Part shown: piece by piece, positions 4,437 through 8,293 of the stretch
How positions within the stretch are numbered: the first letter of the stretch is position 1
How the letters are laid out: every line of letters starts with the position of its first letter
IMG/VR virus record: IMGVR_UViG_3300010392_002534
Location: 1 to 21,578 of that record
Strand: one strand, 5' to 3'
Length of the DNA stretch: 21,578 nt
DNA from: a virus
The notes under the pieces: model-generated
Seen by the model: only the letters and a program-made list of their open reading frames with translations
Database searches by the model: none
What the model was told of the DNA's origin: nothing
Made by a program: the position numbers and the translations under genes

Positions 4437-5185
4437 TGCCGACAACGATTGAGGGACAGGTCTACTACACGCAGGCCGAGGTCGAGGGCGGTTTCGTCGC
4501 CAAGGCTCAGGTCGAGGAGACCATCAAGCGCCGCGTCGACCAGAAGAACGGGAAGATCAGCCAGCTGGAGGCGCAGCTTCTGGAGACCGGCGCCAAGCTC
4601 CGCGAGGCTGGCGAGGCGTCGAGCCGGCTCCAGACGCTGCAGGAGCAACTCGCGACGGAGCGGGACAACGCGGCGCTCCAGGCTGCTGGCATCGACCCTG
4701 CATCTGAGGATGTCGGCTTCCTGCGGATGGCTCACCGGCACATCATCGAGAGCACGCCCGAAGACAAGCGCCCCGAGGACGCGAGCGCGCACTTCCGCGA
4801 GTGGGTCAAGTCCGATGAGGGAGCCAGGGGCAACCGGTTCACGGCGCACCTGTTCAAGGCCGGGCAGGTCGGTGGCGCTGGTGGGGCACCGGCGCCCGCG
4901 CCCGCACCTGCGGCGGGAGCGGACCCTGCCGCTGGAGCCGACCCGGTGGCCGCTGCTGTCATGGCTGCGCTCCAGCAGGCTGGCATCGTGAAGCCCGCTG
5001 CGGACACTGGTGGTCGCAAGCCGCCCGTCACCAGCACCGGCACCGGTGACCCGCGCGTCTCCGGGTCGCTGAGCGAGGGTGAGATCAGCAAGCGAGTGCT
5101 TGCAATCAAGTCTTCCTCAGCGGACACGAAGACGAAGATGCAGCAGCTGGCGGAACTGCGCGCCGAGGTTGCCAAGGGTGGTTGA
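4436..5185 (+). CDS. Capsid scaffolding-like protein
   Basis: A 249-aa protein directly before the major capsid gene, the classic scaffold position. Residues about 20-80 form a charged coiled-coil region (VEETIKRRVDQKNGKISQLE and onward) with heptad-like Leu/Ala spacing. A low-complexity Ala/Pro/Gly linker (about 142-170, repeated PAPAPAP and AGADPAAGAD) separates it from a C-terminal part ending in a short amphipathic helix, TKTKMQQLAELRAEVAKGG. A long helix, disordered linker and C-terminal helix that binds capsid protein is typical of phage scaffolds. There is no protease motif, so it seems to be a separate scaffold and not a protease-scaffold fusion. A strong Shine-Dalgarno (AGGAG, 6 bases before the ATG) supports high expression. 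A minor capsid role is the main alternative. Confidence 0.7.
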   Translation: MPTTIEGQVYYTQAEVEGGFVAKAQVEETIKRRVDQKNGKISQLEAQLLETGAKLREAGEASSRLQTLQEQLATERDNAALQAAGIDPASEDVGFLRMAHRHIIESTPEDKRPEDASAHFREWVKSDEGARGNRFTAHLFKAGQVGGAGGAPAPAPAPAAGADPAAGADPVAAAVMAALQQAGIVKPAADTGGRKPPVTSTGTGDPRVSGSLSEGEISKRVLAIKSSSADTKTKMQQLAELRAEVAKGG

Positions 5186-5210
5186 CCTTGGCGCACGGTT
5201 GTGCTACGCA
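5182..5210 (+). promoter_or_regulatory. Candidate sigma-70-type promoter before the capsid gene
   Basis: TTGACC (5182-5187) is followed after exactly 17 bases by TACGCA (5205-5210), which has an extended -10 style TGC directly before it (5202-5204). The -35 box overlaps the scaffold stop codon. The -10 overlaps a 5-bp inverted repeat, GTGCT (5201-5205) and AGCAC (5214-5218), which could be an operator or a small hairpin. The -10 lacks the usual final T, so this is only a candidate. It lies in the largest gene-free gap of the window, before the capsid gene that needs the highest output. Confidence 0.35.
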
Positions 5211-5234
5211 TAGAGCACCGATAGCGCCTCATTC

Positions 5235-5303
5235 GGGTCTCTCCACGTCACGGGGTTGGGGGCGCAGAAGACGAATCCTTCTGCACCACCAAACAGGAGA
5301 GCC
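5235..5303 (+). promoter_or_regulatory. Structured capsid mRNA leader with RBS-complementary strand
   Basis: The leader contains a perfect 7-bp hairpin, GCAGAAG (5264-5270) and CTTCTGC (5278-5284), with a 7-base loop, ending 9 bases before the AGGAG (5294-5298) of the capsid gene. In addition GGGTCTCTCC (5235-5244) can pair with GGAGAGCCC (5295-5303), giving nine pairs with one bulged T and covering the ribosome binding site, with the small hairpin enclosed. This could modulate capsid translation or stabilise the mRNA. Folding was judged by eye only, and pyrimidine tracts complementary to Shine-Dalgarno sequences also arise by chance. Confidence 0.4.
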
Positions 5304-5305
5304 CT

Positions 5306-6280
5306 GTGGCTGCCCTCACTGTCCCCCAGACCGCAGCTGGCAACAACGCCCAGCTTGGCCTCAACCACATCGTCGGCGCCGAGATCGAGATGGAGCTTGC
5401 CGACAAGCTCGACGCGATGACCACTGGCATCGCCGGGCTCGTCGGCGACCTCGCAGGCTCCGGCACCACGGTCGTCCGGCTCCGCTTCGCGGGCGGCTTC
5501 GGCTACGACACCCGCCTGCAGGTGATGAGCGGCGAGGGCGACAGCCCCCCCGAGGTCTCCCCGACGGCTGGCTACACGGACTGCACCCTCGGTCAGTACG
5601 GCCTGAGCGCGTCTGAGAGCTTCATGTCGCGCATCACGTCCGACCCGGCATCCCGTGCCGCGACCGGCTCCGAGGCCCTGCGCGCTGGCGCCGTCCCGAC
5701 CTTCATCAGCACCTTCCGCCATCACGTCTGCCTGACCGGCGCGACCATCTCCGGCAGCGTGGGCAGCAGCGCCGCCGCGTCGACGGTGGACAACTACCTC
5801 AGCGCCATCGCGAGCTTCAACACCACGTCCGGCGCCCTCGACCGTGGCGCCCCGGTGTTCATGGTCCACCAGCAGCAGGCCCAGGACATCCGCAACAGCG
5901 CCCGCAGCGAGCCGGCGTTCCAGAACTCCGTCGCCGAGTTCGGCATGGTGCAGGGCATCATGGGTCAGGTGACTCCGAACTTCCTTGGCCTCGGCGCAAC
6001 GCTCGCCGCGACCAACGATGTGCAGACCAGCGGCGGCGCCTACCAGGGCTTCGGCATCAGCCCCGGAGGCATCGGCTACGCCGTCGCCAGCACCTCCCCG
6101 CTCGACCTCGGCAACGCGGCCAACGTGGTCTACGTGGACCGGTTCGGGCTCGTCATCTACGACGTGCTCAACGACCAGGGCCAGACCGTCAAGAAGTCGC
6201 AGATCGTGGCCTTCAACGGCTACTGCCTCGGCGACTCCAGCGTGTACCACCAGATCCGCATCCTCGGCGCCACGTCCTGA
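5306..6280 (+). CDS. Major capsid protein
   Basis: A 324-aa protein directly after the scaffold-like gene and a 120-base leader, the expected place and size for a major head protein. The N-terminus (MAALTVPQTAAGNNAQLGLN) is followed by helix and beta segments. The middle and C-terminal parts include VPTFISTFRHHVCLTGATIS, a long helix with VHQQQAQDIRNSA (about 190-205), and beta strands near the end (YVDRFGLVIYDVLNDQGQT), compatible with an HK97-fold capsid protein. The start is GTG, chosen because AGGAG lies seven bases upstream. Codons are strongly C-ending, more so than in the terminase, as expected for a highly expressed gene. No protease gene was found nearby, so processing of the N-terminus seems unlikely. 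Confidence 0.85.
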   Translation: MAALTVPQTAAGNNAQLGLNHIVGAEIEMELADKLDAMTTGIAGLVGDLAGSGTTVVRLRFAGGFGYDTRLQVMSGEGDSPPEVSPTAGYTDCTLGQYGLSASESFMSRITSDPASRAATGSEALRAGAVPTFISTFRHHVCLTGATISGSVGSSAAASTVDNYLSAIASFNTTSGALDRGAPVFMVHQQQAQDIRNSARSEPAFQNSVAEFGMVQGIMGQVTPNFLGLGATLAATNDVQTSGGAYQGFGISPGGIGYAVASTSPLDLGNAANVVYVDRFGLVIYDVLNDQGQTVKKSQIVAFNGYCLGDSSVYHQIRILGATS

Positions 6281-6295
6281 CGACCCCGCGTCGGT

Positions 6296-6329
6296 CCACG
6301 GGGCACGCTGCGCTGGTGTGCTCCCGTGG
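6296..6329 (+). terminator. Strong hairpin after the capsid gene (terminator-like, no U-tract)
   Basis: CCACGGGGCAC (6296-6306) pairs with GTGC (6318-6321) and CCCGTGG (6323-6329), an 11-bp GC-rich stem with one bulged T and an 11-base loop, starting 15 bases after the capsid stop. There is no run of T after it, so it is not a canonical intrinsic terminator. It may reduce read-through, protect the capsid mRNA 3' end, or act with the overlapping RBS-sequestering helix. Confidence 0.4.
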
Positions 6330-6368
6330 CCCGTGGGCCGTCGCCCTCCCTGCATAAGGAGCACACCA
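6314..6368 (+). promoter_or_regulatory. 11-bp inverted repeat that would sequester a ribosome binding site
   Basis: TGGTGTGCTCC (6314-6324) is the exact reverse complement of GGAGCACACCA (6358-6368), which contains the Shine-Dalgarno of the gene starting at 6370. Pairing would hide the ribosome binding site in an 11-bp perfect helix enclosing 33 bases. The upstream strand overlaps the 3' arm of the hairpin at 6296-6329, so the two structures are mutually exclusive. That is the arrangement of a translational switch or attenuator. What would trigger it is unknown. Confidence 0.5.
6357..6368 (+). repeat. Ribosome-binding cassette AGGAGCACACCA, copy 2
   Basis: Second exact copy of the 12-base cassette, here followed by one extra C before the ATG at 6370. 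It forms the 3' arm of the leader inverted repeat. Confidence 0.8.
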
Positions 6369-6369
6369 C

Positions 6370-7098
6370 ATGCCAATAACCTCTGACCATGGCTCTCTCG
6401 ATGTCCTTGGCGGCGTCGAGTACCTCAACTGCGAGCCGAATGAGCCCTTTGTGCTCATGGCGTCTCCTGCGTCCGGCTCTGTCCAGACCGAAGGGCTCGA
6501 CAAGCCGACCTGGCTCCCCGAGCTCGGACTGTTCCGGCTTCGCCCCGGCATCCGCTTCATGCGCGTGGCGTCTCGCAACGAGAGCCTCATGGATGTCTAC
6601 CGCGAGGCCGTCAAGGAACTGGAGAAGGACGGCGAGTGGACCGCCATCCCGATGGACCTCACCATCCCGGGCGAGTTCACTGCCGACGGCATCCCGCTCC
6701 GGTCGTACATGGTGACCCACGACTGCCGACACCTGACGAGCGGCGCGACCGGCAAGTGCTACACCGAGTTCTACGCTCGGCGTGTGCAGACCCGTCGCTC
6801 CAAGGACCCTGTCAAGTGGGAGTTCTCGAGCATGCGCGCCAAGCGCAACCAGTGGATTCTCCAGCTCATCAAGGACGGGGTCATCCCGGTCCCCGACGAG
6901 TGGTGTCGTCGAGACCGCACCGCGGACGCCGAGAACTGGGCCGCCTCGCAGGCGGTCATCGAAGACCCAGCCAAGCGCGAGGACTACGCGACCCGCGCGG
7001 AGCAGCGCGCCGAAATGCACCGCGAGGCTGTCGTCCCGTCTGCAGAGCCCAGCGAACCCAAGCCGAAGGGCCGCCGCGCCCAGAAGGCGAGCGCATGA
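6370..7098 (+). CDS. Unknown phage protein, 242 aa, after the capsid gene
   Basis: I do not recognise a family. The protein is soluble-looking, with a mixed alpha/beta N-terminal two thirds and a charged, helical, probably flexible C-terminal tail (about 195-242) rich in Ala, Glu, Lys and Arg and ending in KPKGRRAQKASA. It contains clustered Cys/His residues: VTHDCRHLTSGATGKCYTEF (about 115-135) and a further Cys in EWCRRD (about 180), a possible metal site but not a standard zinc-finger spacing. The start is well supported by AGGAG eight bases upstream. Its leader has the RBS-sequestering inverted repeat. Position between capsid and decoration-like genes suggests a head accessory or completion role, by inference only. 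Confidence 0.6.
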   Translation: MPITSDHGSLDVLGGVEYLNCEPNEPFVLMASPASGSVQTEGLDKPTWLPELGLFRLRPGIRFMRVASRNESLMDVYREAVKELEKDGEWTAIPMDLTIPGEFTADGIPLRSYMVTHDCRHLTSGATGKCYTEFYARRVQTRRSKDPVKWEFSSMRAKRNQWILQLIKDGVIPVPDEWCRRDRTADAENWAASQAVIEDPAKREDYATRAEQRAEMHREAVVPSAEPSEPKPKGRRAQKASA

Positions 7099-7250
7099 GC
7101 GAGCGACCAACGCACAGCCGCGAAGGCATCGCGAAGACCGCCCACGACCTGCGGCGACATCTCCTCCAGCGCGACAAGCGCATGACCCAGGAACAGGCTG
7201 AGCGCAGAGTGCGCGAGGCCATCCAACGCAGCCCCGTAGAGCGCGACTGA
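7095..7250 (+). CDS. Small charged helical protein, 51 aa
   Basis: A short frame whose ATG overlaps the previous stop as ATGA, the coupling arrangement used at several junctions here. The product (start MSERPTHSREGIAKTAHDLR) is highly charged and predicted helical, with no membrane segment or motif I recognise. Support is the overlap, the following Shine-Dalgarno-led gene after only 18 bases, and the lack of another reading for this stretch. It could be a small head or tail assembly factor or a spurious short ORF. Confidence 0.5.
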   Translation: MSERPTHSREGIAKTAHDLRRHLLQRDKRMTQEQAERRVREAIQRSPVERD

Positions 7251-7268
7251 GCGCCAAGGAGCCCGGCT

Positions 7269-7649
7269 ATGTCCCTCCCCACCAACATGTACTTCGCCCC
7301 CGGAAAGCTGTTCCAGCATCTCCCTGGGCAGCTCTCTGCGGCCACCGAGACCCTGGCTGCGACGCGCGCCCTGACCGCTGCCGACCCGAGCATGCTCAAG
7401 CTCGACCCGGGCGGCGCCGCGCGTGACGTGACCCTGGACGCCGAGGAGAACATCCCGACGACCGGCCTCATCCGCTGGATCTTCAACGCTGCTGACGCGG
7501 CTGAGAACCTCGTGCTCAAGAACGACGCGGGCACGACCATCGCCACCGTCAACCAGAACGAGTCGGCCATCGTCATCAACGATGGAGTCCAGGATGGCAC
7601 CGCATCCGCCTGGACCCTGTACGCCGTCGTCGCCATCGCCCTCTCCTGA
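7269..7649 (+). CDS. Probable decoration/structural protein with one DPGG module
   Basis: A 126-aa protein, start supported by AGGAG at 7257-7261. Residues 33-106 form a beta-rich module with signature LKLDPGGAARDVTL, then FNAADAAENLVLKNDAGTT and NESAIV. The same module appears twice in the next gene, so the two are paralogous. The N-terminal 30 residues are unique. Small beta-sandwich proteins encoded just after the capsid gene are often capsid decoration proteins or fibre-like proteins; here that is inferred from position, size and composition. No catalytic motif was seen. Confidence 0.6.
   Translation: MSLPTNMYFAPGKLFQHLPGQLSAATETLAATRALTAADPSMLKLDPGGAARDVTLDAEENIPTTGLIRWIFNAADAAENLVLKNDAGTTIATVNQNESAIVINDGVQDGTASAWTLYAVVAIALS
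7365..7586 (+). repeat. DPGG beta module, copy A
   Basis: Codes residues 33-106 of the 126-aa protein: core LDPGGAARDVTL, followed by a NAADAAENL segment and an NESAIV strand. It aligns in register with copies B and C in the next gene. Confidence 0.75.
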
Positions 7650-7675: not shown

Positions 7676-8293
7676 ATGGCCTACGGATCTGGAGCCCTCA
7701 AGCAGCTGACCGCTCAGCTGCGGCTCAAGGGTGGCGTCGAGAAGGTCACAATGACCGGAAACGTCACCCTCTCCGCAACCTCGTCCACTGTCCTGCACAT
7801 GGACCCGGGCGGTGCCGACCGCACCGTGACCCTCCTCGCTGAGGAGGTCAGCAACGGCGCCGTTTTCTGGGTCACGAATGCCGCAGACGCGACCGAGGGC
7901 CTCACCATCAACAACGACGCGGCCTCTCTGGTCGTGGCGCTGGGTCGTGGTGATTCCGCCCTTCTCGCCTGCGACGGCACGGACTGGCACGCGACCAGCA
8001 TCACGCGCCAGGTTCGGAACGAGGAACTGACGCTGTCCGGAAACCTGGTCCTCGACATCTACGACGCCCAGATGCTCCGCATCGACCCGGGCGGCGCTGG
8101 TCGTGACGTGACCCTCCCCGCCGAGGCCACCAGCAAGGACGCATGGTTCAGCATCTACAACATCGCTGATGCTGCCGAGGCTTTGACCGTGAAAGACGAC
8201 GGGGGCTCTACCATCGAGTCCATCGGCCAGGGCGAGATTGCCACCGTTGTGTGCGACGGCACCTCGTGGGTCATCCAGGCCCCGAACCACTGA
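7676..8293 (+). CDS. Probable decoration/structural protein with two DPGG modules
   Basis: A 205-aa protein made almost entirely of two tandem copies of the module found once in the preceding gene. Copy B spans about residues 27-104 (HMDPGGADRTVTL, NAADATEGLTINND, CDGTDW) and copy C about 118-199 (RIDPGGAGRDVTL, NIADAAEALTVKDD, CDGTSW). The conserved order is a strand, D-P-G-G, a VTL strand, a NxADAxExL segment and a C-D-G-T-x-W end. The repeated beta architecture and strong Shine-Dalgarno fit an abundant virion surface or decoration protein. This is inference; the protein could instead be a short fibre. The gene probably arose by duplication of the upstream module. Confidence 0.65.
   Translation: MAYGSGALKQLTAQLRLKGGVEKVTMTGNVTLSATSSTVLHMDPGGADRTVTLLAEEVSNGAVFWVTNAADATEGLTINNDAASLVVALGRGDSALLACDGTDWHATSITRQVRNEELTLSGNLVLDIYDAQMLRIDPGGAGRDVTLPAEATSKDAWFSIYNIADAAEALTVKDDGGSTIESIGQGEIATVVCDGTSWVIQAPNH
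7754..7987 (+). repeat. DPGG beta module, copy B
   Basis: Codes residues 27-104 of the 205-aa protein. It ends in CDGTDW, matching the CDGTSW end of copy C. At DNA level the core GACCCGGGCGG is shared with copies A and C. Confidence 0.75.
8027..8272 (+). repeat. DPGG beta module, copy C
   Basis: Codes residues 118-199 of the 205-aa protein, in tandem with copy B and separated from it by a 13-residue linker. Its NIADAAEALTVKDD segment is closer to copy A (NAADAAENLVLKND) than to copy B. Confidence 0.75.

Follow-up and report, generated by a model that had tools for sequence, protein, structure and literature searches.

A putative pseudoknot over the ribosome-binding site downstream of the capsid gene in a group of uncultured phages

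Tailed phages need hundreds of capsid subunits and only a few copies of the neighbouring head proteins, and the ratio obtained from a single message is usually credited to the strength of ribosome-binding sites (RBSs), to frameshifts or to terminators. Here we describe the RNA encoded between the major capsid gene and the gene that follows it (the post-capsid gene) in an IMG/VR virus record of 21,578 bases (65.8% GC), hereafter called the window, meaning this whole stretch of DNA. This spacer probably encodes a cis-acting pseudoknot that sequesters the RBS of the post-capsid gene, and would thus act as a brake on its translation relative to that of the capsid, addressing the dosage problem. 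A control with a similar purpose is found in MS2-type RNA phages, where base pairing by the coat-gene region curbs translation of the replicase downstream of it and sets the ratio of capsid to non-capsid protein; there, however, the genome is RNA, the pairing partner lies inside the coat gene and is opened by coat translation, and the two systems are not homologous. In ColIb-P9 repZ, as in tisB, a structured leader forms a hairpin-loop pseudoknot that governs a downstream RBS in the same message, and the repZ pseudoknot promotes translation. The standby pseudoknot of tisB promotes translation as well (PMC7708055). Unlike in both of these, the pairing in the phage element covers the RBS itself. 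The best-known phage translational pseudoknot, the autoregulatory one of T4 gene 32, resembles the present element in being a pseudoknot of a phage mRNA that controls translation, but it lies 67 nucleotides (nt) upstream of the start codon, nucleates protein binding and does not include the RBS. According to a 2010 review it is possibly the only viral autoregulatory example (PMC3014915). In the preQ1-I and SAM-II riboswitches a hairpin loop and a downstream Shine-Dalgarno sequence likewise form an H-type pseudoknot that lowers translation. These riboswitches have conserved ligand-binding letters and stand in 5' leaders, whereas the phage element keeps only the pairing, with its letters free, and sits between two structural genes. 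The preQ1 family has been reviewed (PMC11625349). The phage element thus belongs neither to these riboswitches nor to the coat/replicase control of RNA phages; no Rfam family reached the gathering threshold in the window or in 13 relatives, and no description of the element was found among open-licence papers, subscription journals and preprints being outside the scope of that search.

In the proposed mechanism, the RNA just past the capsid stop would fold into a long hairpin (stem S1), and a segment of 7–12 nt on the 3' side of the apical loop (the anti-RBS) would pair with the next gene's RBS, tens of nucleotides downstream (stem S2), giving an H-type pseudoknot that would hide the Shine-Dalgarno sequence or the start codon. 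The likely outcome would be strong capsid synthesis and less post-capsid translation from one message. We infer repression and a gene-dosage purpose on the basis of the anatomy of the element, its conserved position, its compensatory changes and the orthology of the junctions, which were observed.

About 230 homologous capsid/next-gene junctions were recovered, IMG/VR being the source of nearly all. Most families have a long hairpin that begins about 7 nt past the capsid stop and whose loop contains 7–12 nt in perfect complementarity to the RBS or start of the following gene; nearly all complements of at least 7 nt are located 26–47 nt past that stop. The pairing was evaluated with an alignment-free swap test on 26 divergent junction clusters, covering every family found, including those without the element, in which the RBSs were exchanged between phages in 3000 permutations. 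The longest perfect complement averages 7.96 nt over the 26 clusters against 5.24 ± 0.23 nt after exchange; none of the 3000 permutations reached the observed mean (maximum 6.12 nt), and capsid leaders gave a mean of 4.9 nt. Complements of at least 7 nt are present in 19 of the 26 clusters, compared with 10% of swaps, one of 26 capsid leaders and 5% of in-gene windows, and in 18 of these 19 the complement starts 29–47 nt past the capsid stop; an earlier set of 23 clusters gave the same picture. Start codons were picked by Shine-Dalgarno sequence and ATG, never by complementarity, with two loci (L180 and L326) corrected by hand and the starts of three loci on metagenome-assembled genome (MAG) contigs (L330–L332) set by eye.

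The two strands are spelled quite differently from one family to another, with unrelated pairs such as TTTCGTCCTTTC/GAAAGGACGAAA, CATGGTCTGTTA/TAACAGACCATG, GCGTTCTCTCG/CGAGAGAACGC, TTTCCTCCTT/AAGGAGGAAA, TCCCTTTGTA/TACAAAGGGA, TCCCTGTT/AACAGGGA and CACGTCCTT/AAGGACGTG. The anti-RBS is TGGTGTGCTCC in the window, GCGTTCTCTCG in L034, GTGTCCTC in L044, TTTCGTCCTTTC in L246, TTTCCTCCTT in L027, TCCCTTTGTA in L200, TCCCTGTT in L217, CATGGTCTGTTA in L221 and CACGTCCTT in L320. Because the pairing is kept while the letters change completely between phages, the RNA at this junction very probably serves as a genuine brake on translation. The preliminary description of this DNA had pointed to relatives of equal gene order as a test; these mostly keep the complementarity with different letters, and covariation is present.

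Compensatory change supports both stems, S2 additionally through the swap test across clades. In a MAFFT alignment of the GC-rich spacers the anti-RBS segments were not in register, so pair counting was limited to one low-GC clade of 20 sequences and the cross-family test was kept free of alignment. In this clade, 80.9% of cells are paired, against 70.0 ± 1.4% in shuffled and at most 57% in slid versions, and the covariation score is 0.304 against 0.164; the structure beats every shuffle for cells paired, for pairs and cells with double changes and for the covariation score, and the slid versions are also lower. The pseudoknot helix S2 is 89.7% paired, with changes on both sides in 4 of its 10 pairs, and the outer S1 helix has such changes in 7 of 9. 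Folding with the anti-RBS forced to be unpaired was carried out on 59 representatives (88% identity cut-off) of the two element-carrying family groups, the GC-rich freshwater clade being excluded. A complement of at least 7 nt exists in 53 of them, and in 51 of these 53 a stem encloses the anti-RBS, which can stay unpaired in the apical loop with the stem intact. This stem starts a median of 7 nt past the capsid stop and has about 20 enclosing base pairs, with about 13 nt leading to the RBS strand, and its mean energy is best when the loop is exactly at the anti-RBS position and worse if shifted. Loops 1 and 2 are short (medians of 3 and 0 nt), compatible with coaxial stacking, and the modelled geometry corresponds to an H-type pseudoknot in which S2 stacks on S1.

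In the preliminary description, the essence of the locus was seen in two mutually exclusive folds, one exposing and the other burying the RBS; because the loop segment abuts the 3' arm, however, the stem and the RBS pairing can coexist. The more general idea of a regulatory RNA over the post-capsid RBS is retained, since the structure probably tunes translation between the two genes, whereas the detail of two exclusive folds is not. In the window (Table 1), the 11-nt complementarity proved to be a perfect reverse complement with exactly the coordinates first given, and the Shine-Dalgarno sequence AAGGAG at 6356–6361 is mostly covered by the GGAGCACACCA strand. The minimum-energy stem spans 6288–6344, a region that ranks first for stability among 4303 RNA stretches of 65 nt compared across the whole window; the folding z of 6284–6350 is −4.5, and the spacer folds three standard deviations better than its own shuffles. 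This stem is longer than the 11-bp hairpin of the preliminary description. That hairpin exists, with one bulge (6296–6302/6323–6329 and 6303–6306/6318–6321), but it is a sequence-specific competitor and not the conserved element, and the fold containing it lies above the minimum-energy fold (−46.4 vs −48.7 kcal/mol). The nested fold with the RBS buried, at −41.5 kcal/mol, lies some 7 kcal/mol above the minimum.

Judged from the window alone, the 11-nt complementarity is weak evidence and mildly unusual; its significance comes from the relatives that keep it. The figure of about 1 in 10^5 at first attached to it was far too strong: dinucleotide shuffles contain a mean of 1.46 perfect inverted repeats of at least 11 nt within 120 nt per window, against one observed, and the shuffle probability restricted to the 89-nt intergenic region plus RBS is 5.5 × 10^−4. 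Chance complementarity in GC-rich DNA, which such an expectation for a window of equal composition would favour, is effectively refuted by the recurrence at the same site, with different letters, in most junction clusters, low-GC families included, and by the failure of every swap to match it. A role of the hairpin alone, as terminator, RNase processing site or mRNA stabiliser with incidental RBS complementarity, would suit its rank in the window and the clusters of L006, L013 and L018, which have hairpins without an RBS complement; it is strongly disfavoured, and most improbable in our estimate, as the window has no terminator-like T tract and a processing site would not need the strong loop/RBS covariation seen across families. 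Even less credit can be given to a recoding stimulator that makes a capsid fusion by stop readthrough or frameshifting. The median of 7 nt between stop and stem matches the spacing typical of frameshift pseudoknots, but recoding does not need the RBS as a pairing partner, and readthrough and frameshifting were rejected, given that the spacers have no constant length modulo 3 and show no preference for keeping the capsid frame open.

A two-state switch, tipped by capsid-translating ribosomes or a bound protein, in which an upstream hairpin either traps the anti-RBS (RBS open) or releases it onto the RBS (closed), appears unlikely, even if it draws on several observations. By nested folding, the full window spacer is mostly RBS-open, and once the 5' arm is shortened so that it begins no earlier than 6300, the RBS-buried fold has a probability >0.99. 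Several low-GC families (L027, L187, L192, L200, L209 and L214) have a 3' arm with two possible partners, the 5' arm and a copy of that arm further downstream, as in GGTTTGGGG..CCCCAAACC..GGTTTGGGG of L027, which suggests alternative folds there. Yet the alternative pairing varies by family: in the window and L034, arm 1 can pair with arm 2 or arm 3, and in marine clades it is arm 2 that can pair with arm 1 or arm 3. What the families share is the loop/RBS pair within a stem that remains intact, and no conserved ligand- or protein-binding sequence was seen. Still harder to sustain is activation of the second gene, with the pseudoknot as a standby or re-initiation aid, since in nearly all families the pairing covers the Shine-Dalgarno sequence or the start codon itself, and the terminators at the junction in L258, L264 and L278 likewise point to lowered downstream expression. 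An RBS-sequestering brake, the reading we prefer, must itself be set against several observations. In some systems a pseudoknot close to an RBS stimulates translation. The pseudoknot energy is a rough sum: in the window only the sign of its difference from the best nested fold (−52.3 vs −48.7 kcal/mol) is meaningful, the margin hinging on the assumed penalty, and it falls below the nested minimum in only 28 of the 53 representatives. A clear loop/RBS complement is missing from the GC-rich freshwater clade (L006 cluster, 79 loci) and from the L013, L018, L025-like, L250 and L290 clusters, and ten loci with 11–25 nt between the genes have no spacer hairpin at all, so that the element is dispensable in some relatives. 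Because these clusters and short-spacer loci are without it, the element arises or is lost within the group, and our claim is confined to the families having it.

The proposed brake is compatible both with constitutive action and with relief by capsid-translating ribosomes. The leading edge of a ribosome terminating at the capsid stop would lie at about the base of S1, which would allow ribosome-coupled control, whereas a ligand or a specific protein is disfavoured because the letters are not conserved. We consider the chances evenly balanced that this is a widespread, previously unreported cis-regulatory RNA of double-stranded DNA phages, namely a covarying RBS-sequestering pseudoknot with near-complete letter turnover that ties capsid synthesis to the gene downstream and that ribosomes completing the capsid gene may open or set. 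Across the relatives, the junction feature has a wider reach and firmer support than could be told from the window by itself, and a whole group of uncultured phages seems to rely on an RNA pseudoknot at this site for dosage. With the pairing preserved and the sequence nearly free, sequence-based RNA searches miss the element, while a complementarity test of the swap type detects it and could be applied to other phage capsid junctions. If the proposal is true, a testable rule follows: breaking the loop should raise the second protein, and restoring the pair should lower it again.

The junction takes other forms in some relatives. In the GC-rich freshwater clade (spacers of L085–L164, e.g. L007:5590–5672) the hairpin has a nearly invariant loop (GTGCTTATGGTAC, GTGCTTACCTGTAC), and the RBS diverges despite this constant loop, the loop/RBS complement being weak or absent; such conservation of the loop suggests that it has another partner or binds a protein. 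Hairpins that resemble intrinsic terminators and have T runs occur at the junction in L258 (3456–3484), L264 (3488–3506) and L278 (3490–3510), where they possibly replace the pseudoknot, another route to lower downstream expression that fits a brake. In the window an intrinsic terminator was rejected, no GC-rich stem followed by a T run being present in 4900–7400.

Used one at a time as queries, the capsid, post-capsid and terminase proteins of the window gave no relatives, and annotated phage records contained none for its capsid or post-capsid protein. The terminase has weak kin in GenBank, and an alignment of these retrieved 80 loci with terminases at most 36% identical, many of which carry portal and capsid homologues in the same order. 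Further loci were added through group-specific capsid alignments, and a narrower capsid alignment against genome contigs yielded the three MAG contigs. The capsid/post-capsid junction is orthologous by both flanking genes. Against 50,697 phage records, the capsid and post-capsid proteins of the group L005–L332 find no match or only capsids of about 26–29% identity, and the bacterial-genome matches of this group are MAG contigs labelled Janthinobacterium and proteobacteria; the group appears to be without cultured relatives.

Table 1. Coordinates of the junction features and flanking genes in the window
Feature	Position	Strand	Remarks
Major capsid gene (5' neighbour of spacer)	5306..6280	+	stop TGA 6278-6280
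Stem S1, 5' strand	6288..6307 (6288-6290, 6292-6302, 6304-6307)	+	fold with anti-RBS unpaired; also in unconstrained minimum-energy fold; pairs 6288-6290/6342-6344, 6292-6302/6330-6340, 6304-6307/6325-6328
Competing 11-bp hairpin (6296-6306 with 6318-6329)	6296..6329	+	part of anti-RBS paired; alternative local fold
Anti-RBS, TGGTGTGCTCC	6314..6324	+	apical loop, 34 nt past capsid stop; same position and role in relatives; perfect 11-nt reverse complement of 6358-6368
Stem S1, 3' strand	6325..6344 (6325-6328, 6330-6340, 6342-6344)	+	abuts anti-RBS, zero unpaired bases between
RBS strand of pseudoknot stem S2, GGAGCACACCA	6358..6368	+	complement of 6314-6324
Post-capsid gene, 242 amino acids, proposed regulated gene	6370..7098	+	hhalign to relatives' post-capsid proteins

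The assignment of the gene upstream of the spacer as the major capsid gene is supported by the PHROG major head proteins that the relatives' capsid proteins match, by annotated phage capsids (a relative's capsid is 26–29% identical to those of Pelagibacter phages and phage DSL-LC06) and by an HK97-type fold match. The window's capsid matches those of relatives with tblastn E-values down to 8 × 10^−12, and its predicted model, of moderate confidence (mean predicted local distance difference test, pLDDT, 62), matches HK97-fold capsids in PDB (E = 2 × 10^−8). The post-capsid protein is orthologous across the group (hhalign probability 96.5%, E = 1 × 10^−9) and has a predicted fold with a pLDDT of 84; it matched no PHROG, no Pfam family and no PDB fold, and its sole match in BFVD is one uncharacterised marine-virus protein. 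Second in stability among the window's 65-nt RNA stretches is 5146–5210, across the end of the pre-capsid gene and the start of the 120-nt capsid leader, so that the two strongest hairpins of the window flank the capsid gene. Downstream of the post-capsid gene, the adjacent genes at 7269–7649 and 7676–8293 both match phrog_32934 (unknown function), apparently as repeated domains.
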